Source of the DNA: a virus
Length of the DNA stretch: 21,257 bases
Virus record (IMG/VR): IMGVR_UViG_3300030107_006594
Span: 1-21,257 of that record
Reading direction: 5' to 3' (one strand)
Both the position numbers and the translations under genes were made by a program. The notes beneath the pieces were generated by a model that saw nothing but the letters and a program-made list of their open reading frames with translations, was not told the DNA's origin and did no database searches. How positions within the stretch are numbered: the first letter of the stretch is position 1; every line of letters begins with the position of its first letter. Of the stretch, positions 2,160 through 17,058 are shown in pieces.

Positions 2160-2177
2160 TTTATCCTTTTATATTAG

Positions 2178-3149: not shown

Positions 3150-3172
3150 ATTTCTTTCTAGATTCTCAGGAC

Positions 3173-3202
3173 ATTAGACTTGTTCCAAAAGGAATGTCTA
3201 AT
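3173..3202 (-). promoter_or_regulatory. Two-part hairpin in the gap before the scaffold gene
   Basis: In the 64-base gap between the small charged gene and the scaffold-like gene, ATTAGAC at 3173-3179 pairs perfectly with GTCTAAT at 3196-3202. Inside it TTCC (3183-3186) pairs with GGAA (3191-3194) around a four-base loop. The mRNA would carry the complement of this structure about 25 bases upstream of the scaffold start. It has no T-tract after it, so it is unlikely to be a simple terminator. An mRNA stability or processing site that sets the amount of scaffold and capsid relative to portal is plausible. Confidence 0.5.
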
Positions 3203-3213
3203 CTCCTCAAAAA

Positions 3214-3483: not shown

Positions 3484-5771
3484 TAATTAGGTACTCCCTC
3501 CTCCAATGGAGCTTCTTCTATATTAGTTGGACTCATCTCTTGAGGTAATTGCATTTGTTGCATCATCTGTTGTTGCATCTGTTGCTGTTGCATTTGCTGT
3601 CTTTGCATTTCTCTCTGTGCTTCTGCACGAATCTGTTCTCTATCTTTTTCTATATTTCCACGAATCTCTGTCTGGTCAATTGCAGTCTTATACTTATTTT
3701 CCATCTCCTGAGTCTTTAATCCTACATCAGAATCCAGTTTGTCACGCTCCAAATCATCCTGCCTGATCATCTTTTCCTGCTCAAGAGAAAATTTCTGTCT
3801 GTCAAGTTCAATATCTGCACGAACCTTTTCCGCTTGAGCTTGTGCAAATATTTCATCTGCTGTAGGCTCTGGTTCTTCTGGAGGGGGAGGTTCAAAATCT
3901 TGAGGGTTACTCCAGAAGGACTGAACATCCTTAAATCCTGATAACTCTGTCATCTTTGAAAGCGTATGATGATACTGATCCATTGTTACTAATGGGTTAT
4001 TTTGACCTTGTTCTTCTAATATCTTCTCCTGTTTTGCTGCCATACCCATTAAAATCTGAATCCTCTCTTCACTTGTACCCATTCCAAGTGCAACATTAAC
4101 ACTAATATCCATTCCTGTATCCCAAACTCTAGGATCAATCGGTATCCAGTTGTTCCTCAAACGAACCATACGAGCCTTATCCTGATGAGTATGCAATAAC
4201 TTTAAAATCTTCCTAAATAGCGGTTTCATTCCATTTTCTGCAAACATCCTGCATAATAACTCAATCTGAGCTTGTGAAGCTGCAACTGTTGCGGAAACTG
4301 CTGCTTTTGTCGTGGATTGAAGAGCAGAGGGGTCAAGACCCATTGACTGTTTACTCATACCAGTCCTGTCTTCCTTAACTTTATCCATATAGTCAAGCAT
4401 AGGGAATGCTTCTTTCCCATTGAAACTCTTATTCAACTCCCCAATTGCTCCTGCTGATCGTGTCCTTACTAACTTTCCTACCTTGTTGCTAAGAGCATCA
4501 TCTATATTAACCTGACCCTCAATTAACCATGTGTCAGGATGGATACTTTTACTGAGAGAATCTAACATATTCCGTAAAATGCTGGATTTCACGAGTTGAA
4601 CATCCATTGTAAGGTCTGCTACACTTTGTCCTCTCCAGAAATGCGGTTCTGGATAACCAGTAAAAAGTACAAATGGTACATCATTGACAGGCTCATGATG
4701 AAGCAACTTATGGTGAGTGCCAGCACAACAAAAACGCCTGAGACTAGCGATTCCACTACCACCGAAATCAACCTTTGCATATGCTTCAATATATAAAACC
4801 TTCCTGTTTGCTTCTCCTCCGTTTGTACTGTCTGCATAATTCCCCACTGGATTTCTAGACATATATTCTGAGTTTGTTCCAAACTCATCCTCATCTCCTG
4901 CTAATTCCAACATATCATCATAGTCATACCCCATACTTGTCAACTCTGAGACTGTAAGATAACGCCTATGAGCAACTATATTACAATCATCTACACTCTT
5001 TGCCCTTCTATCAATTAGAAATTCTTCTGGGGGTAAGGCTTCAAATGAGATGCTTCCATCGACTGAGAGCCTCCTAATAACCACATTATGCAATTGTGGA
5101 ACATCCATGTTCTCCTGCTGCGGTTGTTCAGAGGGAGAGATGCTCTCAGTCTCTTGTGATGGAGGACTAAAATTTGGGTCTGGGTAGGATTCTATCTGAG
5201 AACCCTCTATATCTGGGTCTGAAAGTAATGCTTCTAATGCTTGATCATCTAATCCTGTATATTCCTCATGCTCAACCTCTTCCCTACGTTCCCAATCTAC
5301 TTTTGCTATTCCTACACGCTTTATAAGTGCATCCTTTATAATTGAATAAAACGTGTTAAAAGATGATGGGTTATCCTGCCCCAAAACAACACTATTAACA
5401 TAATCACTAGCTTGTTCACTGTTTGGAACATCTTCTGGGAATCTAGGCTGGTATTCAACTACTCTCTCACTTCCAAAGAATGTCCTCATTATCTGAGGGA
5501 GCATCAATGCAATAGTGTCTCTTACATCCCTGCTTACTACCTGAGAACGACCATCCTCTTCATTACCAAATGGCTTCCCATTATAATAATCTGCTGCCTG
5601 AATGCGATCTGGAGACTCAGAGAGATCAATATAATCAATTGCTTCCTCAATTAAACCCCCAACTAAGGATTCAAGGTCTGTTTCATCCATTGCCTCATCA
5701 CCTGAAAGGCGAATCTGCTCTTTCTCTAACTCTGAAACTTGTTCCCTTTTTTCTGAATCGTATCCTGCCAT
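3483..5771 (-). CDS. Portal protein
   Basis: A 762-residue protein, the size of P22-type portals. The N-terminal half has typical portal text: DYIDLSESPDRIQAADYYNGKPFGNEEDGRSQVVSRDVRDTIALMLPQIMRTF, then NTFYSIIKDALIKRVGIAKVDWE. The middle includes VLYIEAYAKVDF and FVLFTGYPEPHFWRGQSVADL, followed by the long helix region around 430-520. From about residue 640 the C-terminus is a charged coiled coil that ends in a Gln/Met-rich tract (residues about 720-745), as in P22-like portals, where the barrel lies. The portal is the DNA channel at one vertex, the docking site for terminase. It lies between the oxygenase gene and the scaffold genes and has a good AAAGGG site before the ATG. Confidence 0.9.
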   Translation of the reverse strand: MAGYDSEKREQVSELEKEQIRLSGDEAMDETDLESLVGGLIEEAIDYIDLSESPDRIQAADYYNGKPFGNEEDGRSQVVSRDVRDTIALMLPQIMRTFFGSERVVEYQPRFPEDVPNSEQASDYVNSVVLGQDNPSSFNTFYSIIKDALIKRVGIAKVDWERREEVEHEEYTGLDDQALEALLSDPDIEGSQIESYPDPNFSPPSQETESISPSEQPQQENMDVPQLHNVVIRRLSVDGSISFEALPPEEFLIDRRAKSVDDCNIVAHRRYLTVSELTSMGYDYDDMLELAGDEDEFGTNSEYMSRNPVGNYADSTNGGEANRKVLYIEAYAKVDFGGSGIASLRRFCCAGTHHKLLHHEPVNDVPFVLFTGYPEPHFWRGQSVADLTMDVQLVKSSILRNMLDSLSKSIHPDTWLIEGQVNIDDALSNKVGKLVRTRSAGAIGELNKSFNGKEAFPMLDYMDKVKEDRTGMSKQSMGLDPSALQSTTKAAVSATVAASQAQIELLCRMFAENGMKPLFRKILKLLHTHQDKARMVRLRNNWIPIDPRVWDTGMDISVNVALGMGTSEERIQILMGMAAKQEKILEEQGQNNPLVTMDQYHHTLSKMTELSGFKDVQSFWSNPQDFEPPPPEEPEPTADEIFAQAQAEKVRADIELDRQKFSLEQEKMIRQDDLERDKLDSDVGLKTQEMENKYKTAIDQTEIRGNIEKDREQIRAEAQREMQRQQMQQQQMQQQMMQQMQLPQEMSPTNIEEAPLEEGVPN

Positions 5772-5823
5772 AACCCTTTTTGATTAGATATATATAAAAA
5801 AATCTCTGATAAACAACTCTAGA

Positions 5824-6444
5824 TCAAGATATTTTTAATTCTGTTAATATTTTTCTTCCTCCAAACAGCCCCCTAGCAAAAACATTGAATGCCAACGATA
5901 TTCTCTCCTTATCTGTCTCATTCCTATCTACCTGATGCTCCAAATAAGACGGAAATAAAACTAAATCACCATCTTTTATAGATAAAATACGCTCATTTGA
6001 ATTAAATAAGTTCGCATCCTTCGGTAATATCTGTATCCTGTCCTTAACTGACTCATTTGGATCAAAAAATACTATAGAATCACCCTCAATCGTCTGATGA
6101 TAATAAACTCCACTTATTATACTGTTCTGATGACAATGCCTCTGGTGACTCTCTCCATTCCTTGTCACATTTACCCACGATTGAGTGATAAAAAACTCTA
6201 AATCAACTACTGGAGACAATATCTCATCTACATATCTCCCTATTGCAGTATTACAAAATTCTAAAATATCACTAAAATTACTGTCAAATACCCTATTATT
6301 ACTTGTCGTTGAATTATACCTGTTACTACACAAACCTCCTCCTATAACTTCCCTAAATTCACCACTCTCTGACTCCAATATCCCAATTCCCCTGTTAAAC
6401 ATATACAAAGGGGTAGGAAATATACTATCAACTTGACTGTACAT
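5824..6444 (-). CDS. Putative 2-oxoglutarate/Fe(II) oxygenase, TIGR02466-like
   Basis: A 206-residue protein. The signature is SWVNVTRNGESHQRHCHQNSIISGVYYH (residues 89-116), followed by an acidic loop with FFDPN (127-131), then a second block FPSYLEHQVDRNETDKERISLAFN (164-187). This is the order of conserved segments in TIGR02466-type putative 2-oxoglutarate/Fe(II) oxygenases: candidate iron ligands are H103/H105 and H170, and R181 could bind 2-oxoglutarate. It is inserted between the large terminase and portal genes; its ATG overlaps the terminase stop by one base (TAATG). Family members in phages are thought to hydroxylate or modify a protein or nucleotide, with no proven substrate. The reading frame and family look secure, the activity does not. 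Confidence 0.8.
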   Translation of the reverse strand: MYSQVDSIFPTPLYMFNRGIGILESESGEFREVIGGGLCSNRYNSTTSNNRVFDSNFSDILEFCNTAIGRYVDEILSPVVDLEFFITQSWVNVTRNGESHQRHCHQNSIISGVYYHQTIEGDSIVFFDPNESVKDRIQILPKDANLFNSNERILSIKDGDLVLFPSYLEHQVDRNETDKERISLAFNVFARGLFGGRKILTELKIS

Positions 6445-7865
6445 TAAACTATCCCCCTAATCTCCCTATCTAATGGCTTCGACCAAGATTTTGATGCACC
6501 CCTACTTGCATAACTTGCAAATGTCAAAATTAATGCATCTGCTGCATCAGGACTCGCACTACTCCCTAACCTCCTCCTTATATCATCCTTACTCTCCACT
6601 TTTGTCTTGCCTGTTGAACTGTAACCATAACTCACTGAACATAACTCATTAATCAATTGCTCATCATTCGGGATCACTACATCCCTACCCTCAAACCATA
6701 AACGGCACTTCTCCCATAACTCACTCCTTAAATTTAAATAATTTCCACCTACACTCGGAGACTCACCAACATTAACACCCCTTACATCCACACCCTCCTC
6801 TAATAAACGATCAACAACCCCTGCACCTAAACCAATTGAATCTATACAAACTTCTCCTAACTCTAACTTCTTCTCCCTTAACTTGTCTATCTCACTCCTC
6901 ACCCATCCCACAACCTGCATCGTGTCCAATCCACGCTTAGTCTTAACTCCATCTCCTAAGATTACATTGCCCTGCCTTAAACATATTGCACTTGCATCAC
7001 TACCAAACCTCGCAACATCAACTCCTATTGTAACACTACCTCCAATTGGCTCAACCTCCCTTGCAACTGCACCCTCAACTAAATGTCTTGGTATGATTGC
7101 ATCCTCATCTGCCTTTGGAAATTCACCCAATACCCTTACAAAAAATTGGTTGCTGTCTCGACCATATCGGTTCTCTATCTCCTTTATAAAATCCTTACTC
7201 ACTCTTGACGAATCTTCACAATTTACCCTCCATGTCTTCCAATCCTTACTCAACTTGTTATGAGTGTCATAAAAAAACCCCTGACCCCTAACTGGATTCC
7301 CCAATAAAATGGTTGTTGCATTATCTCCACTCATCGATCCTGCACTTGCTTCAAAAATAGCGTTGTTTATCCCACTTGCCTCATCTACACAAAGCAAAAC
7401 ATGGTCACTATGAACCCCTTGCAGAGTTTCGGCACTCCCTTTTTCTGGACGGGAAACTCGGAAACTAATAAAACTCTCACTTGGAGCAGCAATTAAACGT
7501 ATCTGCTCACTCAAAACCTCCAACTGATCCCTTATAACTTGAGGTAATACTGTGATCCATTTTCTTACCTCTGCTCCCAAAGCATCATGCAACTGAGAAT
7601 GGGACGGAGCAGTAACAACAGTCTTTTGGGGAAACCTCGTCAACTGATGCCAGATCATTAACCATGATGCACATGAGGATTTTCCCACTCCATGACCAGA
7701 ACGAATACTTAACCTTCTGCCTCCTCCTGCAACAAAATTTAAAACTTCTGCTTGCCATTTGTCTGGAGTTATTTTTAAAACTTCCTCCACAAATAATACT
7801 GGATCATTAACATAACGTAGCTGGAATTGCTTTAATGCTTTAACTAATGCTTCTTGTGTGTTCAT
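6444..7865 (-). CDS. terL: Terminase large subunit
   Basis: A 473-residue packaging motor. The ATPase domain has Walker A SGHGVGKSS at residues 56-64 and Walker B VLLCVDEAS with D161 and E162, with a probable arginine-containing coupling motif in between. The nuclease domain has GVDVARFGSD with D283, then CIDSIGLGAGV with D342, and DAADALILTF near residues 440-449, which complete the usual three-acidic-residue RNase H-like centre. Its length and motif order are normal, so it looks complete. The ATG has no recognisable Shine-Dalgarno sequence; upstream is a long T tract and a 173-base noncoding spacer that separates it from the small terminase gene. Its stop overlaps the start of the oxygenase gene. 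Confidence 0.95.
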   Translation of the reverse strand: MNTQEALVKALKQFQLRYVNDPVLFVEEVLKITPDKWQAEVLNFVAGGGRRLSIRSGHGVGKSSCASWLMIWHQLTRFPQKTVVTAPSHSQLHDALGAEVRKWITVLPQVIRDQLEVLSEQIRLIAAPSESFISFRVSRPEKGSAETLQGVHSDHVLLCVDEASGINNAIFEASAGSMSGDNATTILLGNPVRGQGFFYDTHNKLSKDWKTWRVNCEDSSRVSKDFIKEIENRYGRDSNQFFVRVLGEFPKADEDAIIPRHLVEGAVAREVEPIGGSVTIGVDVARFGSDASAICLRQGNVILGDGVKTKRGLDTMQVVGWVRSEIDKLREKKLELGEVCIDSIGLGAGVVDRLLEEGVDVRGVNVGESPSVGGNYLNLRSELWEKCRLWFEGRDVVIPNDEQLINELCSVSYGYSSTGKTKVESKDDIRRRLGSSASPDAADALILTFASYASRGASKSWSKPLDREIRGIV

Positions 7866-8038
7866 AAAAAAAAGTTTTTCAAAAAATTTTTTAAAAAAAA
7901 ATGACCCCTTAGTAAAAATCGGATGTAAAGGTTCTGCAACAGCAGCCCCGCCAAAAAAATCAAGGGGGGGGTCAAAAATTCTCGAAAAGCTGAAAAAATG
8001 CGGTCTTTTCTTTGGTTATCTGATAAACAATCAGATTA
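7866..8038 (-). promoter_or_regulatory. Noncoding spacer between terminase genes, with possible stem structures and T tracts
   Basis: The spacer between the two terminase genes has no credible gene on either strand. In the minus-strand transcript there are three notable items. First, immediately after the small terminase stop, ATCTGAT pairs with ATCAGAT around TGTTT. Second, TGACCCC pairs with GGGGTCA across about 60 bases that hold a short hairpin CTGC-TGTT-GCAG; the closing GGGGTCA is followed by a run of nine or more T. Third, further T tracts continue to the large terminase ATG with no Shine-Dalgarno sequence. The second item could be an attenuator or terminator that lowers large terminase output relative to the small subunit. 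No computed energy is available. Confidence 0.45.
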
Positions 8039-8554
8039 CTAGCTAATAATATCAATGACTTGCAATGGTTCATCTAGTTTTTTACTTTCTTTTTTACTTT
8101 CATTAATAATCTTCGGTTTGTTTTGCATCAAGTCTTTAAGCTGATCTAAATAGGTAGAATTTAAGTCAATGTTCATGTTTACATTTTGTTCCACCTTTTC
8201 CCCGAATCTTGCCCTATCTAAGACTTGTGCCTGCCACCGCTTCATCTCATAACTAATTTTGTACGCATTACTGTTTTTTGGGTCAACTAACACTTGCTCC
8301 GACAGTTCATTTATCCTTTCAAGATTTTGGTTAGCCCTCTCTTCCCTCGCCTGTATGTATTTATCTTGCAGATCTTGAGACCGCTTTAGTCTCCAATTCA
8401 CTTTGGTATATTCTACATTTTCCAACTTGCAAAACTCACTCAATGACATTCCCTCGATTCCAATCGCCAAAAATAACCGCTCCCAAAATTGCGAATTTTC
8501 AAGTTTGTTTTCCTGCATTTCCTTTCTTAGCTTTGTTTTCTTCCTACCCGCCAT
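8039..8554 (-). CDS. terS: Terminase small subunit
   Basis: A 171-residue DNA-binding protein at the head of the packaging operon. Its N-terminus is basic (AGRKKTKLRKEMQEN), followed by a helix-turn-helix-like stretch EGMSLSEFCKLENVEYTKVNWRLK (about residues 33-56), as in small terminases, then a long charged helix (DLQDKYIQAREERANQNLERINELSEQV) and a helix before an acidic C-terminus (VEQNVNMNIDLNSTYLDQLKD). It is adjacent to and in the same direction as the large terminase gene. AAAGGG precedes the ATG closely. The call rests on position, size and the HTH-like region. The sequence itself is not one I can place in a named subfamily. Confidence 0.8.
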   Translation of the reverse strand: MAGRKKTKLRKEMQENKLENSQFWERLFLAIGIEGMSLSEFCKLENVEYTKVNWRLKRSQDLQDKYIQAREERANQNLERINELSEQVLVDPKNSNAYKISYEMKRWQAQVLDRARFGEKVEQNVNMNIDLNSTYLDQLKDLMQNKPKIINESKKESKKLDEPLQVIDIIS

Positions 8555-8572
8555 TTTTTACCCTTTTATTCA

Positions 8573-8600
8573 ATTATATCAACAATTTATGCAACGTTTT
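8573..8600 (-). promoter_or_regulatory. Candidate promoter for the terminase/head operon
   Basis: On the minus strand AAAACGTTGCATAA (8587-8600) is followed after eight bases by TATAAT (8573-8578), preceded by TGA, so it carries an extended -10 (TGATATAAT). There is no good -35 at the usual distance. The 14-base upstream block might be an activator site that replaces it. Predicted transcription would start about 12 bases before the small terminase ATG. The same block occurs again at 8877-8904 with the same spacing, which supports a functional element. Confidence 0.55.
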
Positions 8601-8876
8601 AAATCCAAGCTCCAGTAAATTACACTAAATTGTACGAAAAAAAACCTTTCGTAAATCATTGTTTTTATTAACAAAACACCCAAAAAAAAGCCCTTTTTAA
8701 AGTAAATTCCATTAAAACACTTTCTTATTTTCCCTATTGTTTTTTTACTATATTTGAACATCAATAATAGATAAAGTTTAATAATAATAGTTATTTATCC
8801 AACGAATCGGGTATTTGTAATTCGTTTTGAAGCATGTAATTAACTAAAAAACAAAAAAAATATAGTATATTAATTA

Positions 8877-8904
8877 ATAATATTAGTTAGTTATGCAACG
8901 TTTT
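8877..8904 (-). promoter_or_regulatory. Second copy of the leftward promoter-like element
   Basis: On the minus strand AAAACGTTGCATAA (8891-8904) is repeated exactly and is followed after eight bases by TATTAT (8877-8882), the same geometry as the copy at 8573-8600. The eight-base spacers differ (CTAACTAA here, ATTGTTGA in the other), so the conservation is confined to the block and the hexamer. It lies about 300 bases further from the small terminase gene. It could be an upstream second promoter or a second binding site for the same regulator. Confidence 0.5.
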
Positions 8905-9127
8905 CATTTTCATATTTTGATGTAAAAGTACTGGAATTAAGTGGTATTTACCCATTTTTTTATTTTTCCCTCAATTTTGGAGTCTTCAAATCGCTCTGTA
9001 TTAAAAGAAGTTAAACCTCTCTATATATTAGTACCTTTTTCCCTTCCTTCCTTCCTACATAAATATGAACACAATTAAATATTTTATTAATTATTTTAAT
9101 TATTTTGCATCTTTTTTAATATTTTGC

Positions 9128-9157
9128 TTGTAATATGCATTTAATTTAATATATAAT
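9128..9157 (+). promoter_or_regulatory. Candidate rightward promoter for the small-gene island
   Basis: TTGTAA (9128-9133) and TATAAT (9152-9157) are separated by 18 bases. The predicted start is about 9164, just before the degenerate copy of the repeated RNA element at 9166. The first gene of the island starts at 9215 with a strong AGGAGG site, so the leader would be about 50 bases. The region is very AT-rich, so chance matches are likely and confidence is moderate. Confidence 0.45.
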
Positions 9158-9160
9158 AAA

Positions 9161-9205
9161 TTTATAGGAATTAACCTTTCAGTAATTAAAATATTTTTAA
9201 CATTA
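9161..9205 (+). repeat. Degenerate copy of the island's repeated RNA element
   Basis: GGAATTAACC (9167-9176) has the same AATTAA loop and paired GG/CC flanks as the second hairpin of the full elements, followed by a TTTCAGTAATTAA stretch like their 3' part (CACTAAGTAAA). The first hairpin is missing. It lies at the predicted start of the island's transcript and ends in the ribosome binding site of the first gene. Confidence 0.4.
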
Positions 9206-9214
9206 GGAGGCTAT

Positions 9215-9412
9215 ATGACAAATAAATATTGGATTAAATATAAATGGGATAAAGACGGATGTAAATCCCTGTATTCTGAAGAACTTTATAATAATGATAT
9301 TTTCAGATTGCCTCACAAATCTAGAGATGAGGCTGAGTATTGGATATCAAGAATTGTGGATGGTATTAATTTAATTAAAGCAGATTTCTATATTATTAAC
9401 TCTAATAAATAA
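9215..9412 (+). CDS. Unknown small protein, 65 aa, first gene of the island
   Basis: A 65-residue protein rich in aromatic and charged residues (MTNKYWIKYKWDKDGCK, then RLPHKSRDEAEYWISRI). It has a strong AGGAGG site seven bases before the ATG and ends seven bases before the next gene, so the two are co-translated. It has no signal peptide, no membrane segment and no metal-binding pattern. The segment HKSRDEAEYWISRIVDGINLIKADFYIIN resembles a short alpha/beta fold. No family is recognised. Confidence 0.75.
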   Translation: MTNKYWIKYKWDKDGCKSLYSEELYNNDIFRLPHKSRDEAEYWISRIVDGINLIKADFYIINSNK

Positions 9413-9419
9413 AGGTAAT

Positions 9420-9842
9420 ATGTTAGCAAGAATAACTTTTAGTGAATTTAGAGATAGATTAAACGAATCAGATGTTGCAAGGGGTTGCTTTAGTTACGAT
9501 GCAAAACAATTGATTTATTCTCATCTAAATGAAGATGAAAATTATATAATGCAATCCCCTTGTGATATTGCTTGCGAATGGGCGGAGTCAACATATGAAG
9601 ATCTAAAAAACGATTGGGATTATGATGAAAGTTTTTGCCAAATTTACAAAGATGTTCAGCAATGGTGTGATGGTGAAACAACAGAAAGTCAATATAATTC
9701 ATCAATTATTGCTCGTGTGGCGGATTGGCTTAGTGAGAAAACTATTTACTTAGGCGTTGCAAATCGTGGAGAAGATGACGAGTTAAACAATTACAATTCC
9801 GACTTGCAAACGACAACTTTTATCTACGCTAAAAACTTTTAA
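9420..9842 (+). CDS. Unknown acidic protein, 140 aa
   Basis: A 140-residue, clearly acidic protein with many Asp, Glu and Tyr residues and few Lys (DIACEWAESTYEDLKNDWDYDESFCQIY). Acidic, small, early-expressed phage proteins of this kind are often inhibitors that imitate DNA or bind host proteins; that is only an analogy. Residues SIIARVADWLSEKTIYLGVAN form an amphipathic helix region. An AAAGG site precedes the ATG. The stop codon begins the first full copy of the repeated RNA element. No family is recognised. Confidence 0.75.
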   Translation: MLARITFSEFRDRLNESDVARGCFSYDAKQLIYSHLNEDENYIMQSPCDIACEWAESTYEDLKNDWDYDESFCQIYKDVQQWCDGETTESQYNSSIIARVADWLSEKTIYLGVANRGEDDELNNYNSDLQTTTFIYAKNF

Positions 9843-9920
9843 TTAGTTTCCAACCTCAAGGCATTTGCAAGAGTGCCTTGACTGATGGGAATTAACCTAT
9901 CACTAAGTAAATTTTAATAA
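9841..9920 (+). ncRNA. Repeated two-hairpin RNA element, copy 1
   Basis: A conserved 5' block, AATTAGTTTCCA, begins in the stop codon of the preceding gene. Hairpin 1: CAAGGCA (9857-9863) pairs with TGCCTTG (9874-9880) around a ten-base loop. Hairpin 2: TGATGGG (9883-9889) pairs with CCTATCA (9896-9902) around AATTAA. An alternative helix, TTTCCA (9847-9852) with TGGGAA (9886-9891), encloses hairpin 1 and excludes hairpin 2. The ribosome binding site of the next gene follows about 20 bases later. Copies 2 and 3 keep these pairings with changed bases. Confidence 0.75.
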
Positions 9921-9930
9921 AGGGTACAAG

Positions 9931-10341
9931 ATGAAACTTTCAGAAATAAAAGAAATTAAATATTTAGTTGGTGATGACTGGAAAGAAGCAGTTATATCAA
10001 TCAGTCTGAAAAAAGATGACTTTGAGATTGAAAATTTTAGATTTATCCATCAAGACAAAATTGATTCCATCCAACAAGAGGAACTTGCAAGCGATAGTTA
10101 TATTTTAGGATGTTTCAATGCTAATTTTTTAGCTGATATTCTAGAGATTCCCCAACAAGATGTTGAAGATTTACAAAAAAAAGGCTGTTTTGATGCTCTG
10201 GGATATATGGTTTTTAAGGGTGGACATTTGGAAGAATTACAAAAACGATATGTAGAAGCTGACAGTTATGGGCATCACTTTGCTCATTATGACCATTGCG
10301 AGCATGAGATTGGCAACTACTATGCTTTTAGGGTCAATTAG
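9931..10341 (+). CDS. Unknown protein, 136 aa
   Basis: A 136-residue protein that follows RNA element copy 1 and ends at the start of copy 2. Its AAAGGG site lies about nine bases before the ATG. The N-terminal half reads as alternating beta strands (KEAVISISLKKDDFEIENFRFIHQD). The C-terminus has a His/Cys cluster: GHHFAHYDHCEHEIGNYYAFRVN (residues about 114-136), which could bind a metal but does not match a pattern I know. It is acidic overall. No family is recognised. Confidence 0.75.
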   Translation: MKLSEIKEIKYLVGDDWKEAVISISLKKDDFEIENFRFIHQDKIDSIQQEELASDSYILGCFNANFLADILEIPQQDVEDLQKKGCFDALGYMVFKGGHLEELQKRYVEADSYGHHFAHYDHCEHEIGNYYAFRVN

Positions 10342-10417
10342 TTTCCAGTATCAAGCCATTTGGAAATGTGGCTTGTTAGGTGGAAATTAATCCGCCACAA
10401 GTAAACCTTAACAGGAT
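10336..10417 (+). ncRNA. Repeated two-hairpin RNA element, copy 2
   Basis: It starts with the same 12-base block as copy 1 (10336-10347), again in the stop codon of the preceding gene. Hairpin 1: CAAGCCA (10352-10358) pairs with TGGCTTG (10369-10375), ten-base loop; compared with copy 1 a G-C pair has become C-G, a double compensatory change. Hairpin 2: GGTGGA (10379-10384) pairs with TCCGCC (10391-10396) around the same AATTAA loop. The alternative helix is TTTCCA (10342-10347) with TGGAAA (10381-10386), fully paired. Confidence 0.75.
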
Positions 10418-10422
10418 CAAAA

Positions 10423-10557
10423 ATGAAAAAATATTGGAATGAAATTAAAAACGAATGGAACAATGAAGCCAGAAATCCTTTCTGGCTAAAATCATTAATA
10501 ATCTTTGCTTTTTCTTATTCAATAATTGCAACTTTAATTGTTGCAATTACAAATTAA
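10423..10557 (+). CDS. Small single-span membrane protein, 44 aa
   Basis: A 44-residue protein. The first 24 residues are hydrophilic, with many Asn, Lys and Trp (MKKYWNEIKNEWNNEARNPF). Residues about 25-42 are a continuous hydrophobic helix (LIIFAFSYSIIATLIVAI), ending in TN. The single span with a hydrophilic N-terminal half fits a small inner membrane protein, of a kind phages often use to affect host membrane functions, such as superinfection exclusion or lysis regulation, neither of which can be shown here. The ribosome binding site is weak (AGGA). RNA element copy 2 lies just upstream, so its translation may be controlled by that structure. Confidence 0.65.
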   Translation: MKKYWNEIKNEWNNEARNPFWLKSLIIFAFSYSIIATLIVAITN

Positions 10558-10571
10558 AAGTATGAGGAATT

Positions 10572-10583
10572 TTAGTTAACTAA
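10572..10583. repeat. Perfect 12-base palindrome before the 128-aa gene
   Basis: TTAGTTAACTAA is a perfect palindrome in the 43-base gap between the small membrane protein gene and the next gene. The hairpin would have no loop, so as DNA it is better read as a possible binding site for a dimeric regulator. It lies in a spot where neighbouring gaps carry the RNA element. A chance event in AT-rich DNA is possible. Confidence 0.35.
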
Positions 10584-10600
10584 TAATAAAAGGAGAAAAT

Positions 10601-10987
10601 ATGCAACGTATGAAAAAGCCGAACCTAAAAGCCTTTGCAGAAAAGACAATTAATACAAGTTGTGATGCATTTGTTAGGGAAGATTTCTTTCCATCTGGAG
10701 GGATGCACCCTGAATTTTATGGGGAACTTTCCTGTAAAAAAAAGTATCCAAAATTAATCAGTTATGAAGATGGACATATTCAAGGTCGATTTAATTTTGT
10801 GGGGGAATCACTTGGAGATTTATATTTACTTTGCTCCCATTATGCAGAAATTAATGAGGAATATTATGTATTCTGGAGTCATTCAATACATACCAGTGAA
10901 AAGTTTGGAGAAAAAGACTTTTACGATTGGGTAGTCTGGACTCCAAACTCTAAACATTATAATGATCTAAAAAAGGAGGAAGTATGA
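10601..10987 (+). CDS. Unknown protein, 128 aa
   Basis: A 128-residue protein with a strong AAAGGAG site. It has a basic N-terminus (MQRMKKPNLKAFAEK) and aromatic-rich middle (FFPSGGMHPEFYGELSC, then GRFNFVGESLGDLYLLCSHYAEINEEYYVFWSH). The second Met at codon 4 is a possible alternative start, but the first has the better spacing. Its TGA overlaps the next ATG (ATGA), so the two are translationally coupled. No family is recognised; the folded, mostly beta composition and absence of membrane segments suggest a soluble protein. Confidence 0.75.
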   Translation: MQRMKKPNLKAFAEKTINTSCDAFVREDFFPSGGMHPEFYGELSCKKKYPKLISYEDGHIQGRFNFVGESLGDLYLLCSHYAEINEEYYVFWSHSIHTSEKFGEKDFYDWVVWTPNSKHYNDLKKEEV

Positions 10988-11310
10988 TACTTCATTTTTA
11001 CAGAAGCCCTTCTGGGAGCTTGCTCTCTGAAAGTGGGTCAAATTGGAATACTGCTGAAGAAAATAAATTATTGGAGAAATTAGAAGATAATTTTCTTAAA
11101 TTATTTAAGTTAGGTTCTTTTAGTATCCCTCGTGAACAGGCAAAGCAAATAAGAGAATCGTTACAAAAATGGGGAGGTGATTCTAATGAAGATATAAGTA
11201 TTGGTAAAGTTTTTGATTCACATGGTAGAGAACAATTTTATATAACTCTACACGATACTGAGAAAACTCTATTTTTTGAAATTGACTCCCGAAATAAACA
11301 GGAAGGTTAA
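10984..11310 (+). CDS. Unknown protein, 108 aa, coupled to the preceding gene
   Basis: A 108-residue protein that begins in an ATGA overlap and has a GGAGGAAG site inside the previous gene. It reads as a small alpha/beta protein: a beta hairpin at the start (MILHFYRSPSGSLLSESGS), a long charged helix (TAEENKLLEKLEDNFLKLFKLGSF), then FSIPREQAKQIRESLQKW and a C-terminal pair of strands (KVFDSHGREQFYITLHDTEKTLFFEI). Its stop codon starts RNA element copy 3. No family is recognised. Confidence 0.75.
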   Translation: MILHFYRSPSGSLLSESGSNWNTAEENKLLEKLEDNFLKLFKLGSFSIPREQAKQIRESLQKWGGDSNEDISIGKVFDSHGREQFYITLHDTEKTLFFEIDSRNKQEG

Positions 11311-11384
11311 GTCCCTAGCTTCAAGGCATTCTCAGGAGTGTCTTGGATGGTAGGAATTTACCTACCTTAGGAATTTACCTACCT
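11309..11384 (+). ncRNA. Repeated two-hairpin RNA element, copy 3, with a tandem duplication
   Basis: Hairpin 1: CAAGGCA (11322-11328) pairs with TGTCTTG (11339-11345), including a G-U pair, around a ten-base loop. Hairpin 2: GGTAGG (11349-11354) pairs with CCTACC (11361-11366) around AATTTA. The alternative helix is TCCCTA (11312-11317) with TAGGAA (11351-11356), five of six pairs, two of them changed in step relative to copies 1 and 2. The hairpin 2 segment is then repeated exactly as a second 17-base unit (11351-11367 and 11368-11384). The spacer continues into a separate structured RNA. Confidence 0.7.
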
Positions 11385-11675
11385 TTTGAAAAATATGAAG
11401 GTAATGATTACGGGGGTGAACGATCTTTAACATTAGCTGATGCTGGAAAGTATAGACTGAGTCGGAGGGTAGTTGGTGAGAAACCAACGTAAAACAGAGG
11501 ATAATTTAGGTGAAAACCTCAAATTACTGGAAGTCCACAACAAGACGAGGTGAGGATAAGGCTAGAATTACAGCGAAGTGGGTCTAAGATTGAAGCGAAA
11601 GATTGAAATGGTCGCATCCAAATAAGTCGATTCTAAGTAGCGCTCCCCCTCTAATTTAAAATAAATAGAGGAAGT
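11385..11675 (+). ncRNA. Candidate structured noncoding RNA or leader of the 115-aa gene
   Basis: A noncoding segment with no open frame above about 11 codons that has a ribosome binding site. Positions 11411-11650 are about 44% G+C by my count, well above the AT-rich surroundings. Visible stems: GTTGGT/ACCAAC (11472-11477 and 11483-11488); TAATTTAGGT with ACCT-AAATTA around a GAAA tetraloop (11502-11526); TAGAAT/ATTCTA (11563-11568 and 11630-11635); GGGGG/CCCCC (11412-11416 and 11645-11649), which closes the whole domain. The 3' end can instead form CCTCTA/TAGAGG (11648-11653 and 11666-11671), hiding the next gene's ribosome binding site. I could not assign a family; group I or II intron core and tmRNA features were not convincing. 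Confidence 0.6.
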
Positions 11676-12023
11676 ATGAAACAGATAGACGCCTTAGAAA
11701 AGTTTTTAAATGATAATGGATTTTCTGCAAAGCAATGGAAGTTTGGCAGAATTTACTTGAATGGCTATGGGAAAGACATAAAAGCATATGTAGAAATGGA
11801 TACCCCAGATTCAGAAGAATTTGCAACAGTTTATGAAGGTTGTAAAGTAGAAGTTTATTCAAACGCTAATCAAAGTTATGCATGGATAAAGAACAGGCAA
11901 AAGCAAATTATACATTCTATTGCCTTAAAACTGGAAGAATCAGGATTATTAAAAAAAGTTTCTGATTCTTATAACCAAAAATATTGTCCTGTGCCAGAAA
12001 ATTGGCAGGATATGATTGTTTGA
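11676..12023 (+). CDS. Unknown protein, 115 aa, with a structured leader
   Basis: A 115-residue soluble protein. The N-terminus is helical (MKQIDALEKFLNDNGFSAKQW), followed by strands (KFGRIYLNGYGKDIKAYVEMD), an acidic loop (DTPDSEEFAT) and a second set (YEGCKVEVYSNANQSYAWI), then a basic C-terminal helix (NRQKQIIHSIALKLEESGLLKK). AGAGGAAG precedes the ATG and can be hidden by pairing with upstream CCTCTA, which may regulate translation. It is the only gene in the island with a long structured leader. No family is recognised. Confidence 0.75.
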   Translation: MKQIDALEKFLNDNGFSAKQWKFGRIYLNGYGKDIKAYVEMDTPDSEEFATVYEGCKVEVYSNANQSYAWIKNRQKQIIHSIALKLEESGLLKKVSDSYNQKYCPVPENWQDMIV

Positions 12024-12034
12024 GAAGGAGGGAG

Positions 12035-12295
12035 ATGGCTCATAGTAAAAAAATTGCAAAATGTCTTTTATGGATGAAAGATGATCCAAGAATAATAAGT
12101 ATTCACATGGAAGATAGTAGTGGAGACGAGGGCGAAGGAAATGGTGAGTGGTCTTATTGGATTTATACAAAAGGACTACATTATTTTGGACTCCATGCGA
12201 TCCATGAACATACAGCAAAAGCTGTTATGGAACAGTTTAAGCGAATGGATAAATGCGAAGACCCCAATTGTGAATCTGAAGAAAACCATAATTAA
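12035..12295 (+). CDS. Unknown protein, 86 aa
   Basis: An 86-residue protein. I place the start at ATG 12035, which has a strong GAAGGAGGG site, rather than at an in-frame ATG further upstream at 11984, which lies inside the preceding gene and has no site. The middle reads DPRIISIHMEDSSGDEGEGNGEWSYWIYTKGLHYFGLHAIHEHTAKAVMEQF: an acidic Gly-rich loop, aromatic strands and a helix, typical of a small beta-beta-alpha fold. A Cys-x4-Cys near the end (KCEDPNCESE) might bind metal. No family is recognised. Confidence 0.7.
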   Translation: MAHSKKIAKCLLWMKDDPRIISIHMEDSSGDEGEGNGEWSYWIYTKGLHYFGLHAIHEHTAKAVMEQFKRMDKCEDPNCESEENHN

Positions 12296-12307
12296 AAAGG
12301 AGAACGT

Positions 12308-12481
12308 ATGAAAACATTAGCTGAACGTTTATATGAAAAGTCTCAGGAATTAGATTGGGATGAAAGGGGCATTGTGTCTGGTGATCCAGAAGTTAAAATA
12401 GTTTTAGATATTCTGGATTTACAGATTAGAGTTGAAAAAATGGAAGGAAAGAAGGGGGAGTATGAAACAACAAAAAAATAA
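12308..12481 (+). CDS. Small acidic helical protein, 57 aa
   Basis: A 57-residue protein with a clear AAAGGAG site before the ATG at 12308. Helical and charged: LAERLYEKSQELDWDERG, then DPEVKIVLDILDLQIRVEKMEGKKGEYETTKK. It overlaps the start of the next gene by about 20 bases. No membrane segment or cysteine is present. Such short charged helical proteins are often anti-host factors or regulators, but nothing here proves it. The frame is supported by its ribosome binding site and the coupling with its neighbours. Confidence 0.6.
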   Translation: MKTLAERLYEKSQELDWDERGIVSGDPEVKIVLDILDLQIRVEKMEGKKGEYETTKK

Positions 12482-12884
12482 AAAATGGAGATTTTCACCT
12501 AGAGGTGGGGAAGTAACAGATAAAGACGCATTTCTTTGGTACCATAACGAATTTTATGGGAAGAATCTAAAAGAAAAATTGGACAAAGCAATGGGTAAAT
12601 TGACTATAAGTTATGACCCAAACTTTGACATTAAAAGGGAAGAAGTTGCAAAAATAGGAGAAAAGATTGTAAAAACATTAAAGGATCGTGAAAATGATTT
12701 TATAACAATTACTTGCCCTCAAAAAGAATATACGCTCACCAAATATGAAGCCTTACAATTTGGGTCTAAAATCCTTGAAGTTATTGCAACCCATGAAAGT
12801 AATATTAGTCATAAAGAAGGATACATAGATGGTAATAACGTGGATTTTATTGAGAAATTGATAGGGAAAAGGAGGAAAGTATGA
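12462..12884 (+). CDS. Unknown protein, 140 aa
   Basis: A 140-residue protein; I chose ATG 12462 because AAGGGGGAG lies directly upstream, while an in-frame ATG at 12432 lies inside the preceding gene without a site. It has a very basic N-terminus (MKQQKNKKWRFSPRGG), then a helical and strand mix (DKDAFLWYHNEFYGKNLKEKLDKAMGKLTIS; REEVAKIGEKIVKTLKDREN; DFITITCPQKEYTLTKYEALQFGSKILEVI) and a basic tail. The stop codon overlaps the next ATG. No family is recognised. Confidence 0.7.
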   Translation: MKQQKNKKWRFSPRGGEVTDKDAFLWYHNEFYGKNLKEKLDKAMGKLTISYDPNFDIKREEVAKIGEKIVKTLKDRENDFITITCPQKEYTLTKYEALQFGSKILEVIATHESNISHKEGYIDGNNVDFIEKLIGKRRKV

Positions 12885-12937
12885 AAACAAAAAACAACCT
12901 TGAAGATTTACAATATGAAAGAAAGGAGGGTGCATGA
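12881..12937 (+). CDS. 18-codon mini-gene between two overlapping genes
   Basis: An 18-residue frame, MKTKNNLEDLQYERKEGA, with AAAAGGAGG before its ATG. It overlaps the end of the preceding gene (ATGA) and its own TGA overlaps the next ATG. Good site and coupling at both ends make translation plausible. It may be only a coupling device that passes ribosomes to the zinc-ribbon gene, or the remains of a longer gene. Confidence 0.4.
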   Translation: MKTKNNLEDLQYERKEGA

Positions 12938-13125
12938 CTGAAAAGACTAAACAAAACTCACATTCCTTTTACAAATGTGAGGATTGTGGGAGCAAGGAAC
13001 TTTTAATACCATCTTGGAAAACTCAGAATGGCATGGATACGATAGATTATCCTGATCCCCACGATTTAGGCGGTGATGCATGGTGCATTGACTGCGAAAA
13101 AATAATCTGGGTAGACACACGATAA
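12934..13125 (+). CDS. Small zinc-ribbon protein, 63 aa
   Basis: A 63-residue protein with two cysteine pairs: CEDC at residues 15-18 and CIDC at 51-54, a Cys-X2-Cys spacing of a zinc ribbon, with strands between them (ELLIPSWKTQ) and a Gly/Asp-rich loop (YPDPHDLGGDAWC). GAAAGGAGGG precedes the ATG. Such a protein could bind nucleic acid or a host protein. It begins in an ATGA overlap with the mini-gene. The family is not recognised beyond the zinc-ribbon pattern. Confidence 0.75.
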   Translation: MTEKTKQNSHSFYKCEDCGSKELLIPSWKTQNGMDTIDYPDPHDLGGDAWCIDCEKIIWVDTR

Positions 13126-13130
13126 AAGGA

Positions 13131-13297
13131 GAAAAGGAGGCTGTATGAAAACTTGGGGTTACATATATGGTGATGAATGTCCTGAAATTTGGGAGCATTT
13201 TGGAATGAAACCAAATAGCCCAGATGATCGGCTTAAAGTAAAATTAATAGAATATCAATCTGAAGATGAACAAAAGGAAAAGGAGGCTGTATGAAAA
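13131..13297 (+). repeat. Direct repeats of 21 bases around the 49-aa gene
   Basis: The ribosome binding site and start of two neighbouring genes are identical over 21 bases: 13131-13151 and 13277-13297, containing AGGAGGCTGTATGAAAA. The repeats are 146 bases apart and bracket exactly one gene. Recombination between them would delete that gene without harming the next one, and a similar event could have inserted it. Confidence 0.7.
13145..13294 (+). CDS. Small unknown protein, 49 aa
   Basis: A 49-residue protein with a strong AGGAGG site. MKTWGYIYGDECPEIWEHF is aromatic and acidic, followed by GMKPNSPDDRLKVKLIEYQ and a charged tail (SEDEQKEKEAV). Its stop overlaps the next ATG (ATGA). It is bracketed by 21-base direct repeats that contain the ribosome binding sites. 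No family is recognised. Confidence 0.6.
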   Translation: MKTWGYIYGDECPEIWEHFGMKPNSPDDRLKVKLIEYQSEDEQKEKEAV

Positions 13298-13638
13298 AGT
13301 TTAGAGTATTTGATGATGAATATAAAAGAACATGGGAAGTTAGTCTCACGTTTGATTCCAAAGCAAAAGAAAAGGATTATGAATATAGAATCCACTTTAG
13401 GAAGGTGGACGGGGAGGGTAAAACTACAGTAAACCCTTATTGGCATCATGCCTATTATGCTTCCACTCTGCTAGAAAGTCATTGCAGGGGGAAAGGCATT
13501 TGTTTGCATGGTGGTGGAACTTATGAGGATAGAATTAGCATGGGTGCAAAAGCATTTGATCAATCAATAAATAAAGTTGAAAAACATCTTAAATCTAAGG
13601 GAAAAAATGCCAGAAAAAAGAACCACGCTTTCAATTAA
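13291..13638 (+). CDS. Unknown protein, 115 aa
   Basis: A 115-residue protein with a repeat-borne strong AGGAGG site. The first 45 residues form strands (KKFRVFDDEYKRTWEVSLTFDSKAKEKDYEYRIHFRKVDG), the middle has histidines and a Cys pair (PYWHHAYYASTLLESHCRGKGICLHGGG), and the C-terminus is very basic (VEKHLKSKGKNARKKNHAFN). The His/Cys arrangement could bind a metal. A basic tail is consistent with nucleic acid binding. It overlaps the start of the ribbon-helix-helix gene by about 30 bases. No family is recognised. Confidence 0.7.
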   Translation: MKKFRVFDDEYKRTWEVSLTFDSKAKEKDYEYRIHFRKVDGEGKTTVNPYWHHAYYASTLLESHCRGKGICLHGGGTYEDRISMGAKAFDQSINKVEKHLKSKGKNARKKNHAFN

Positions 13639-13774
13639 GGAAAGCACAAAGAAAACTCTAGATGAATATTTAGATTTCTTTGAGGAAAAAACAGGACTGA
13701 GAGTTACTAATATAAGTTTTTTAGAACAATCAGTTTTAGAAAAAATAGAACGTGATAAGGAAAAACTAAAGTAG
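13607..13774 (+). CDS. Ribbon-helix-helix DNA-binding protein, 55 aa
   Basis: A 55-residue protein. KRTTLSIKE is the ribbon strand, followed by helix A (STKKTLDEYLDFFEEKTG) and helix B (NISFLEQSVLEKIERDKEKL), the layout of CopG/Arc-type repressors, with strand residues that usually read the DNA. Such proteins act as dimers and commonly repress their own operon. I place the start at ATG 13607; an in-frame ATG at 13577 lies inside the preceding gene and has no site. It is the last gene of the plus-strand island, so it is well placed to feed back on it. The convergent primase gene ends five bases away. It could also be half of a toxin-antitoxin pair, but no partner is next to it. Confidence 0.75.
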   Translation: MPEKRTTLSIKESTKKTLDEYLDFFEEKTGLRVTNISFLEQSVLEKIERDKEKLK

Positions 13775-13779
13775 TTATT

Positions 13780-16017
13780 CTATTCACAAAAATAATAGGT
13801 CGTAGTTTTACCATTTGTAGAGCTACGACTTTCCACGTTTAGGATTTCTGCCTCATATAAATCTTCTATAATGTTTTTTCTGACAGATCGACTCTTGAGA
13901 AATCGAGTTTTTCTAGTCAAGTCAGAAAGCGTAATGCCATTCTTACATTCTCTAATAATTTCCTCGACTCTTTTACTTTCTTTTTCTGCATAATTATCTG
14001 CCAAATTCCTTATTATTTCACGAATAGTATTTTTCATTATTATAGAAACCAACTTTGTGGAATAATCTGCAAACTCTGGAGGAATTTCATTGAGGAAATT
14101 TGATGCACTAAGAATTAATGCAATCTTTTTAGAGTGTTCGCTTGCACGAACCCACATAGATGCAGTTGTTGTCGGTTTATCAGCCTTGTCAAGACATTTA
14201 TCTTCAAAGTTATCAAAAATCTCAATTGCTTCTTTAGAATAATAAATTGTCATAGGATCAGGATCACAAGTTATTTCTCCAAAATCTCTATCAAGAGGTT
14301 GTTTATAAATGGTTGAGGAATTTACTGTTTCTCCATAATGGTCTATGAATTTTTTTGGGTCATAAAGCCTAGATGTTGAGGAAATTTTAACATTTTCAGT
14401 TAAGTTATTTAATCTTAGGATTGAATTTTTTAACTCTTGAGGAAATTCCTTAATTCTTTGAGTCATTTGTCTTTGTGGTCTTTCGTTAAGTGCAGAAAAG
14501 ACTAAAAAGCGGTTCAAACTTCCATCACGAATCGCAGAATGAGAAAGCCCTTCCCAGAAAGTCTCAGGAGTGGAGGTTCCATAAATATTTGAGTGTGGTT
14601 GAGCAATCTGGAATCTGGGATTTTCTCTTGCATTTGCTTTATCTGTTCCATAGAACATGGAGGCAGATGAGGTGTACAATTCCATAAGTGCAGTCATTAC
14701 ATCACGAACATGACCAGACGATTTTTCTCCTAATATAGATGAAACATATTTCCCAAACTCATCAAACAAGAATAAAGCGGAAGGAGTTGCAGAAAGCACT
14801 CTTTCAATGGCAGTCCTTGAAGAAACTTTTTCTGCCCCAAATCCTTGAATTTCGCATTCAGCAAATAGTTTTTTTATAATCGCCCTTGCCATTTCTTTTC
14901 CGATACCTGTTCTTCCAAGTCCAACCATATAGAGGTTTGGTCTTATATCATCTTCAGTACAAACTTTTCTTCCAAGTAGGGTTGCAGTAAATGCAAGAGA
15001 AGCAGGAAGTGCTAGAGTAGGTTGAGGGTATCTAGAATTATCAGTAATGAATTTTGCAAGTTCACCAACAAAGCCTATTGGGTAGCACATTTCTGGAGAT
15101 AGTGTAGGAATTTCTTCTTCCTTTTTTTTCTCAACACTTTTTTTGGGTCGTGGAATCATTACAGGAGAACCAATCTCAAAATGTTGCATTACTGTACCAC
15201 CAGTAACACCTCCTTCTTGTGAGATTGTATTCCACTTATACCTCATTTCTTTAGGATTGTATTTGGAACTTTTACTTGACCATGAATCCCATAAAGCGAA
15301 ACCTGATTCACCAAGCATTGCTTTGAGTGAACATCCAACCTTGAACCAAGTATCGTATTCTTCTGGATTAATATTCTGGAGTGCTACTTCTGCTTTTTCG
15401 TAGTCTGATTTGGTAGGATCATCAAGGACTTTGGTTGCATCAAAAAACAACCCTCCCTCCCCCGATGACGAATCATCTCGCTCAATTTCTAACGGAATAC
15501 AATCTTCATTCCCTTTTATTTCTTCATCATATGAGACAAACAATAGTCTTGCAATATCTTTACAGGAATTATCTAATTCAACTCCATGATTTTTTTTAAA
15601 ATATTCCTGTGCAGTTAAAAAATAATCGGTATGTCCTTCAGGATTTTCAGGAACTTTAATTGCTAGTTTAACTCCTCTTCCTGAAGGAGATAAGAAAGAT
15701 GCTCTTACATGGGGGTCAAGTGCAAGTGCATCTCTCAGTTTTTCTGGTTCTTTTACTTCATCAATATCCCCTTGAAGTAGCCCCGAATATTCGATTAGAT
15801 TTTCTGCATTTCTTCCATCAAAATTCCCTGAAAGTGTGACTGCATTGAGTAGTTTTTTCTTCTTATTATAAACTTCCTTCCCATGAGTGTTTAAACACTC
15901 TCTAAGGGAAATTATTTCACTCTTCCATCTTCCAGATCGTATACTCTCAAAAAAATCATCAGCAGAGACTAATGAATGATTTTTAGCCATTGCTGATTTA
16001 AAAAAGCTGATATCCAT
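13780..16017 (-). CDS. Primase-helicase (BT4734/VirE-like, PriCT-2 and DUF3987-type ATPase)
   Basis: A 745-residue replication protein. The N-terminal primase-like part has GDID (residues 83-86), SPSGRGVKLAI (110-120) and DIARLLFVSYD (154-164), which correspond to an archaeo-eukaryotic-primase-like core as in BT4734/VirE N-terminal domains. A PriCT-2-like domain follows at about 206-280 (PEEYDTWFKVGCSLKAMLGESGFALWDSWSS). Then a helicase-type ATPase has Walker A GLGRTGIGKE (366-375) and Walker B ALFLFDE (414-420). The C-terminus looks like a winged helix (ITLSDLTRKTRFLKSRSVRKNIIEDLYEAEIL). It is the last gene of the early operon and should unwind and prime phage DNA. No other primase, helicase or polymerase is seen in the window, so host polymerase would be needed. 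Confidence 0.85.
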   Translation of the reverse strand: MDISFFKSAMAKNHSLVSADDFFESIRSGRWKSEIISLRECLNTHGKEVYNKKKKLLNAVTLSGNFDGRNAENLIEYSGLLQGDIDEVKEPEKLRDALALDPHVRASFLSPSGRGVKLAIKVPENPEGHTDYFLTAQEYFKKNHGVELDNSCKDIARLLFVSYDEEIKGNEDCIPLEIERDDSSSGEGGLFFDATKVLDDPTKSDYEKAEVALQNINPEEYDTWFKVGCSLKAMLGESGFALWDSWSSKSSKYNPKEMRYKWNTISQEGGVTGGTVMQHFEIGSPVMIPRPKKSVEKKKEEEIPTLSPEMCYPIGFVGELAKFITDNSRYPQPTLALPASLAFTATLLGRKVCTEDDIRPNLYMVGLGRTGIGKEMARAIIKKLFAECEIQGFGAEKVSSRTAIERVLSATPSALFLFDEFGKYVSSILGEKSSGHVRDVMTALMELYTSSASMFYGTDKANARENPRFQIAQPHSNIYGTSTPETFWEGLSHSAIRDGSLNRFLVFSALNERPQRQMTQRIKEFPQELKNSILRLNNLTENVKISSTSRLYDPKKFIDHYGETVNSSTIYKQPLDRDFGEITCDPDPMTIYYSKEAIEIFDNFEDKCLDKADKPTTTASMWVRASEHSKKIALILSASNFLNEIPPEFADYSTKLVSIIMKNTIREIIRNLADNYAEKESKRVEEIIRECKNGITLSDLTRKTRFLKSRSVRKNIIEDLYEAEILNVESRSSTNGKTTTYYFCE

Positions 16018-16024
16018 TTCTCTC

Positions 16025-16165
16025 CTAAAGTAAAGTCTTATATTTCATATAAGCCAAATAGCAGCGATAACTCTCCCTTGCCTTTTTTTGGCGTTTTTTT
16101 TTATCCGCAATTCCTTCCTCAATTCTTTTTTGACTTGCAATCGCAATCCTAACGTGGTCATTCAT
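16025..16165 (-). CDS. Small basic protein, 46 aa
   Basis: A 46-residue protein with many Lys and Arg residues, including HVRIAIASQKRIEEG and KKKRQKKARESYRCYLAYMKYK. Its ATG overlaps the end of the HNH nuclease gene (ATGAATGA), and its stop lies about seven bases before the primase ATG, with AGGAG in between, so it is translationally linked at both ends. A basic helix of this kind may bind DNA or the helicase. No family is recognised. The coding call rests on coupling and position. Confidence 0.6.
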   Translation of the reverse strand: MNDHVRIAIASQKRIEEGIADKKKRQKKARESYRCYLAYMKYKTLL

Positions 16166-16574
16166 TTTTTAAATTTTTAATAAATTTTTCATATGGCATA
16201 GTTCCTTTTTTTTGATTACATTCATTACATGAAATAACCAAATTATCCTCATCTTTGTAATTATCTGAATTTAAATCTCTAAGGGGAATTTTGTGTTCGA
16301 TGCAAAAGTGATCAGGATCAAGTCTTTTTTTGCAGTAATGGCAAGGAGCGGTCTGGTCTTCCGCTTTTGCTTTCATCCACAACCGCAAGATCGTTGCTCT
16401 TGGATACCCACCTTTTTTTGTTCTTAGTGATCCTCGAGCCTTATCCTTACACCATTGAACCTTGTCCTTACACCTTCTGGAACAGTATTTCTGAGTTTTC
16501 CCCTGCGAATTTCGTGGGGTATAAGAAACCCCACAAAACTCACATTCCTTTTTACCAGTATTAGATAAACTCAA
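16158..16574 (-). CDS. HNH endonuclease with an N-terminal zinc finger
   Basis: A 138-residue protein. The N-terminal zinc site uses C11, C14, C31 and C35 (CEFCGVSYTP; YCSRRC). The nuclease part runs from residues 78 to 124: CHYC, then FCIEHKIPLRDLNSD with the catalytic H94, NLVISCNECNQKKG with N111 and a second Cys pair C116/C119. This is the HNH-type layout with a structural zinc. The start appears to be TTG at 16574, overlapping the DUF669-like stop; no in-frame ATG is present before the zinc site. It sits inside the recombination operon, so it may process DNA for recombination or packaging, or it may be a homing-type insertion. No intron is seen. Confidence 0.85.
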   Translation of the reverse strand: MSLSNTGKKECEFCGVSYTPRNSQGKTQKYCSRRCKDKVQWCKDKARGSLRTKKGGYPRATILRLWMKAKAEDQTAPCHYCKKRLDPDHFCIEHKIPLRDLNSDNYKDEDNLVISCNECNQKKGTMPYEKFIKNLKNE

Positions 16575-17056: not shown

Positions 17057-17058
17057 AA

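Follow-up and report, generated by a model that had tools for sequence, protein, structure and literature searches.

The question raised by this locus is why the same folded segment recurs at gene junctions in a block of small phage genes, and which class of RNA signal it represents. The window (the whole 21,257-nucleotide stretch of DNA that was analysed) is a 21 kb genome fragment of a marine tailed phage encoding a terminase, a portal protein, a major head protein and a DNA primase; it further encodes a RecE-like exonuclease, a Sak4-like annealing protein, a RusA-like resolvase and, at its right end, a partial integrase. The terminase is less than 60% identical to those of all 755 matching GenBank phage records. 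Three copies of the element sit inside a rightward block of small genes at approximately 9.2-13.8 kb, nearly all of which have no recognised family; this block is presumably an early operon. A possible sigma-70 promoter (TTGTAA-18-TATAAT, 9128-9157) lies ahead of the rightward operon, and the related contig L006 has a stronger-looking candidate at about 2225 on the - strand.

The initial annotation described a repeat with three copies, and a direct-repeat search finds all three at the positions listed below as the strongest direct-repeat family in the window. Their 55-nt cores begin at 9841, 10336 and 11306, with copies 2 and 3 being 76% and 69% identical to copy 1; blastn of copy 1 within the record retrieves copy 2. 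Each copy runs from a strand A through hairpin 1 to a strand B, whose partner is either A (long hairpin) or a following strand C (hairpin 2).

9841-9902, + strand: copy 1 of the element, between the ORF at 9420-9842 and the ORF at 9931-10341
9843-9852, + strand: strand A of copy 1 (TTAGTTTCCA), with the stop codon TAA (9840-9842) immediately 5' of it
9856-9881, + strand: hairpin 1 of copy 1, 11 bp with a GCAA tetraloop, matching the upper stem of T7 R1.1
9886-9895, + strand: strand B of copy 1 (TGGGAATTAA), able to pair with A or with C
9883-9902, + strand: hairpin 2 of copy 1 (TGATGGG-AATTAA-CCTATCA), the alternative to A:B
10336-10396, + strand: copy 2 of the element, between the ORF at 9931-10341 and the ORF at 10423-10557
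10338-10347, + strand: strand A of copy 2 (TTAGTTTCCA), with the stop codon TAG (10339-10341) inside it
10352-10375, + strand: hairpin 1 of copy 2, an 8-bp stem with a larger loop
10381-10390, + strand: strand B of copy 2 (TGGAAATTAA)
10379-10396, + strand: hairpin 2 of copy 2 (GGTGGA-AATTAA-TCCGCC)
11306-11366, + strand: copy 3 of the element, 3' of the ORF at 10984-11310
11308-11317, + strand: strand A of copy 3 (TAAGTCCCTA), its first bases being the stop codon TAA (11308-11310)
11320-11347, + strand: hairpin 1 of copy 3, 12 bp with a tetraloop
11351-11360, + strand: strand B of copy 3 (TAGGAATTTA)
11349-11366, + strand: hairpin 2 of copy 3 (GGTAGG-AATTTA-CCTACC)
9164-9190, + strand: half element (a B-C piece, AGGAATTAACCT...) in the operon leader, where homology to sister phage L187 stops at about 9177

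The B-C piece of copy 3 is tandemly duplicated, the second one lying at about 11367-11385. There is no gene directly downstream of copy 3; a non-coding stretch of about 290-300 nt follows (11385-11675), which ends in GCGCTCCCCC, has a fold z-score of -0.43 (not unusual) and gave no Rfam or phage match. Short remnants (TTTTAGTTAACTAATAA, TTTTAGTCTCTGGAATTAAC), which resemble elements that have lost hairpin 1, occur at about 10574-10590 in the window, at about 13025 in L187, and at about 260 in L006 and 670 in L010 (- strand). On the - strand, 10476-10596 gives a sub-threshold match to the Rfam ribosomal S15 leader (29.2 bits; gathering threshold 39.5), which is antisense to the gene block and probably due to chance.

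Relatives of the terminase were retrieved from IMG/VR and scanned for the element, and contig L187 was found via its primase. Seven related viral contigs and one other also carry the fold, and the genes on either side of it differ. L006 (identical to L009 in this part) carries three more copies between other genes; L010 carries two, also between other genes, and the gene separating these two encodes an anti-restriction protein (PHROG); L187 has one copy. A second, more distant family of elements (L027, L029, L031, and L176) keeps the layout with most bases changed, and a contig of another context, L181, contains one further element. Among the members of the alignment, the genes flanking one copy do not match those flanking another, with two exceptions: neighbouring copies that share the gene in between, and the near-identical pair L027 and L176. 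The second family was recovered from viral contigs by a DNA-pattern scan with GATGGTAATTCTGCCATC and L181 by one with TGGTRGRAATTAAYYTRCCA, while the first and the broad DNA-pattern scans of viral contigs returned almost exclusively chance matches. The element occurs in only a small number of contigs; a blastn search of 50,697 phage records with copy 1 gave no match, and none of the 36 loci found by searching bacterial genomes with the terminase alignment (the best about 50% identical) contains it.

The - strand gaps of L026, L027, L029, and L031 also hold other structured segments at many junctions. Several of these share the layout A, hairpin 1, B, C with a different sequence, and some stand directly before hairpins resembling intrinsic terminators. 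One of them (about 2051 in L029, about 4521 in L026) looks like a hairpin with a loop able to pair downstream, and in these four contigs several start codons are preceded by a common 5' UTR tail of the type TTTAACACTAATNAAATGAGG.

The fold of the element differs in part from the one first proposed, which comprised two hairpins, the first with a ten-base loop. Both hairpins are found in every window copy, and the pair in hairpin 1 reported to change from G-C to C-G to G-U across copies 1-3 does so. The two hairpins are, however, only half of the structure: strand A, of the type UUAGUUCCUA, pairs over 9-12 bp with strand B, which consists of the 5' arm and loop of hairpin 2, and the A:B helix encloses hairpin 1 to form a single long hairpin of approximately 19-24 bp. 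For nearly all members the long hairpin is predicted to be the fold of minimum energy, and when both folds are forced it beats the two-hairpin form by 0.8-8.8 kcal/mol in 13 of 13 members; in copies 1 and 2 and in L027 the two forms differ little in energy, and with longer flanks the partition-function probability of the long hairpin is only 0.2-0.5. Most of the supposed loop of hairpin 1 is itself paired, giving 11-12 bp closed by a tetraloop in copies 1 and 3 and in most family-1 copies. Each copy had been said to start at or just before the stop codon of the preceding gene; the stop codon is indeed close, forming part of strand A in copies 2 and 3 and immediately preceding that strand in copy 1.

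A:B and B:C are mutually exclusive, and A:B, hairpin 1, and B:C all covary. The counts are based on 8-13 related sequences: in the eight family-1 copies (three from the window and five from relatives), where both the two-hairpin layout and the alternative A:B pairing covary, pairing is kept in 96% of cells and both-sided changes occur at 8 of 16 pairs, hairpin 2 maintaining its pairing through base changes, against a mean of 4.4 pairs in shuffles and 0-3 with slid partners; in the 13 members, 91-92% of cells pair under either layout, with both-sided changes in 10-11 pairs versus 0-7 with slid partners. The three helices together contain 276 Watson-Crick, 34 G-U, and 6 A-C cells when read on the + strand, which indicates the mRNA-sense RNA strand as the selected molecule. 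Selection on RNA structure, which the initial annotation had proposed from the window alone, is strongly supported by this covariation in homologues, by the G-U/A-C asymmetry, and by the retention of the elements between different genes in related contigs.

T7 and its relatives are a textbook case of RNase III sites at gene junctions, and T7 was compared with the element to test the idea of an RNase III site. Rfam, at gathering and at permissive thresholds, contains no relevant family for the element, and no known phage RNA family had been recognised in it at the outset; that view is not supported, as reciprocal covariance models match the element to the T7 and T3 sites of RNase III processing. 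When the T7 gene junctions are folded, R1.1 looks similar to copy 1, and the preceding gene's stop codon falls in the lower stem of R0.5. A covariance model built from the marine elements only (R2, with copy 2 among the training members) gives five matches in 28.5 kb of T7 and T3, all of which are RNase III sites (E-values of this and the following model are rough, coming from a short calibration): R1.1 is the single match in T7 500-9500 (E 5.5e-6), and the four matches in T3 500-9500 plus T7 9500-20000 (E 0.0016-0.065) are T3 R0.3, R0.5, R1.1, and R1.3, annotated as RNase III recognition sites. In the other direction, a model built from 11 T7/T3 sites only (R3) was run against 623,590 bases (42 loci, E up to 5) and gives six matches with rough E-values of 8e-7 to 0.02, all of them to the elements described here: one in L010, two in L006, one in L187, copy 1 (9840-9898, E 0.0043), and copy 3 (11305-11365, E 0.0019). 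Nothing beyond these sites was reported by R2 or, with E up to 5, by R3. Copy 2 and the elements of the second family and L181 are not among the R3 matches, so their link to T7/T3 runs via the other copies.

The likeness is closest between copy 1 and T7 R1.1, which align over 38 columns with a long common stretch and have CAAGG-CATTyGCAAGAGT-GCCTT in common, copy 1 being one pair shorter. T3 R0.5 is annotated as a stem-loop starting at the last base of the preceding gene. RNase III cleaves R1.1 at nt 5887 of T7, and in R1.1 derivatives a 12-bp stem closed by a tetraloop is sufficient for cleavage (PMC8708148). A stem of about this length with a tetraloop is present in copies 1 and 3 and in most relatives; copy 2 has 8 bp and a larger loop. 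The elements also lie between co-oriented genes that are presumably expressed early.

It is thus likely, judging from modelled structure and kinship, that each copy acts as a T7-type RNase III processing signal at junctions of the rightward early operon. The transcript would fold into the long hairpin, with the lower stem A:B at the upstream stop codon, a small internal loop, and hairpin 1 as an upper stem of 11-12 bp. Host RNase III would then cut the early polycistronic mRNA once, on the 3' side of the internal loop; alignment with T7 nt 5887/5888 predicts cuts at 9883/9884, 10378/10379, and 11348/11349. Such a cut would split one mRNA from the next, the upstream one then ending in a stable 3' hairpin, with a probable consequence for expression.

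The position of the stop codon may add a further level of control. The upstream stop codon is in or touches strand A in 12 of 13 alignment members, the exception being L181, in which it lies several nt upstream of strand A. A search for stop-anchored layouts of this kind, with thresholds chosen after examples had been seen, covered 98 stop codons from the cassette regions of eight contigs and found the layout at 19 of them, versus 0.2 expected from shuffles; these 19 sites include several mutually dissimilar sequences. Judged against control rates of 5/1340 at bacterial loci, 12/1517 in other viral contigs, and 22/4419 at positions inside genes, the layout is strongly enriched, though how strongly varies with the settings. 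In 19 of 20 sites the stop codon and hairpin 1 are 10-16 nt apart, 11 being the commonest spacing, which is about the stretch covered by a terminating ribosome. When a ribosome-sized mask is placed over the stop codon, the computed probability of hairpin 2 is 0.93-1.0 in 10 of 11 cases tested; L187 gave zero because the script picked another pairing. Because strand A is covered while a ribosome sits at the stop codon, the RNA is expected to move into the two-hairpin form when the upstream gene is translated; in that form strand C, specific to the marine elements, would take B from A to make hairpin 2 and the long helix would be absent. A translation-gated site, at which a ribosome completing the upstream gene makes A unavailable, so that hairpin 2 can form and the predicted cutting is avoided, is a tentative extension of the RNase III reading and on balance a doubtful one; if it were true, mRNA processing at each junction would report translation of the upstream gene.

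Other functions are known for stem-loops in phage early operons. In HK022 the put RNA antiterminator, of about 70 nt with two stem-loops, is present in early transcripts (PMC9378689). The elements are similar to it in size, in their two stem-loops, and in their early-operon setting, and in L026, L027, and L029 some sites with the A-B-C layout lie directly before hairpins resembling intrinsic terminators. That the elements are put-like, with adjacent hairpins binding RNA polymerase and suppressing termination in the early operon, is nevertheless very improbable: neither the window copies nor the remaining family-1 copies are followed by a terminator, put occurs once per early promoter and not at successive gene junctions, and of the features of put (two stem-loops, a conserved and required AGACG 5' segment, and critical U28 and G35) the stem-loops are possible but AGACG is, by inspection, absent from family-1 elements; the sequence is better explained by the match to T7/T3. 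A riboswitch-like or translation-coupling element, controlling access to the ribosome binding site of the gene that follows, is the least probable of the readings considered. Having two structures that exclude each other, and a stop codon within strand A, would suit such a role, but Shine-Dalgarno accessibility is nearly equal in both forms in 10 of 11 cases, which makes cutting or stability the likely output rather than initiation at the next gene, and copy 3 has no gene directly after it. Shine-Dalgarno sequestration as such is likewise not supported by the accessibility in the two forms. Stop-codon read-through was rejected because the stop codon of copy 1 is in a different frame relative to the element and the frame that follows soon closes in several copies; there are no matching integron attC core sites by eye, and no intrinsic terminators at the window copies.

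Recombination between sister phages bears on a further explanation. L187 matches the window with 94% identity over 8400-9177 and with 99% over 13586-13999; its small-gene block is entirely different, and blastn of window 9178-13585 against L187 11353-13673 finds only copy 3 in common, 90% conserved with other genes around it. The homology on the left stops inside the B-C half element, one breakpoint falls in the B motif, and there is a half element in L187 and shortened elements in L006 and L026, which suggests that the repeats also serve as crossover points, by chance or not. These observations, along with the RecE-like and Sak4-like recombination proteins encoded by the phage, would fit a DNA-level gene-shuffling module like the PeSL cassettes of T4-type phages: recombination at the repeats would exchange small genes for host takeover, with the hairpin either incidental or acting as a terminator. 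A PeSL, as cited in PMC4503421, is made up of a stem-loop terminator together with an early promoter; the region has no terminator-like site on the + strand, and promoter-like sites are no more frequent than by chance, a weak one after copy 2 (10408-10435) being at chance level. With the covariation and the excess of G-U over A-C also requiring selection on the RNA strand, shuffling is very unlikely to be the primary function, and is compatible with the RNase III reading as a by-product.

Two features are new for RNase III processing signals, namely the group of phages and an alternative hairpin that is conserved. A sequence core shared with an unrelated phage group that carries an integrase would point either to a mobile processing signal or to convergence on the rules of the same enzyme. 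The two conserved pairings A:B and B:C compete for B, and with the stop codon located at A this provides a testable idea for translational control of mRNA processing, and models R2 and R3 offer a route to such sites in uncultured phages, where they are unannotated.

Among known systems, HK022 put differs from the elements in sequence motif, placement, and number, and to our knowledge has no counterpart of the stop-anchored long hairpin. PeSLs are likewise intergenic stem-loops tied to the shuffling of small genes, and the window copies differ from them in having neither a terminator nor a promoter beyond chance. Compared with the T7/T3 sites, the marine elements belong to a different phage group, have a longer lower stem and a smaller internal loop, and almost always have the stop codon in or adjoining the lower stem; the alternative hairpin 2, conserved in the marine elements with six or seven pairs, is found only at R1.1 among the 11 T7/T3 sites, so ribosome gating would be without precedent there. 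In other respects the two groups agree: R0.3, R0.5, R1, R1.1, and R1.3 likewise lie between co-oriented early genes and consist of an upper stem, a small internal loop, and a lower stem, the stop codon is in the lower stem of T7 R0.5 as it is in the marine elements, and T7 R1.1 and copy 1 share the core CATTyGCAAGAGT.
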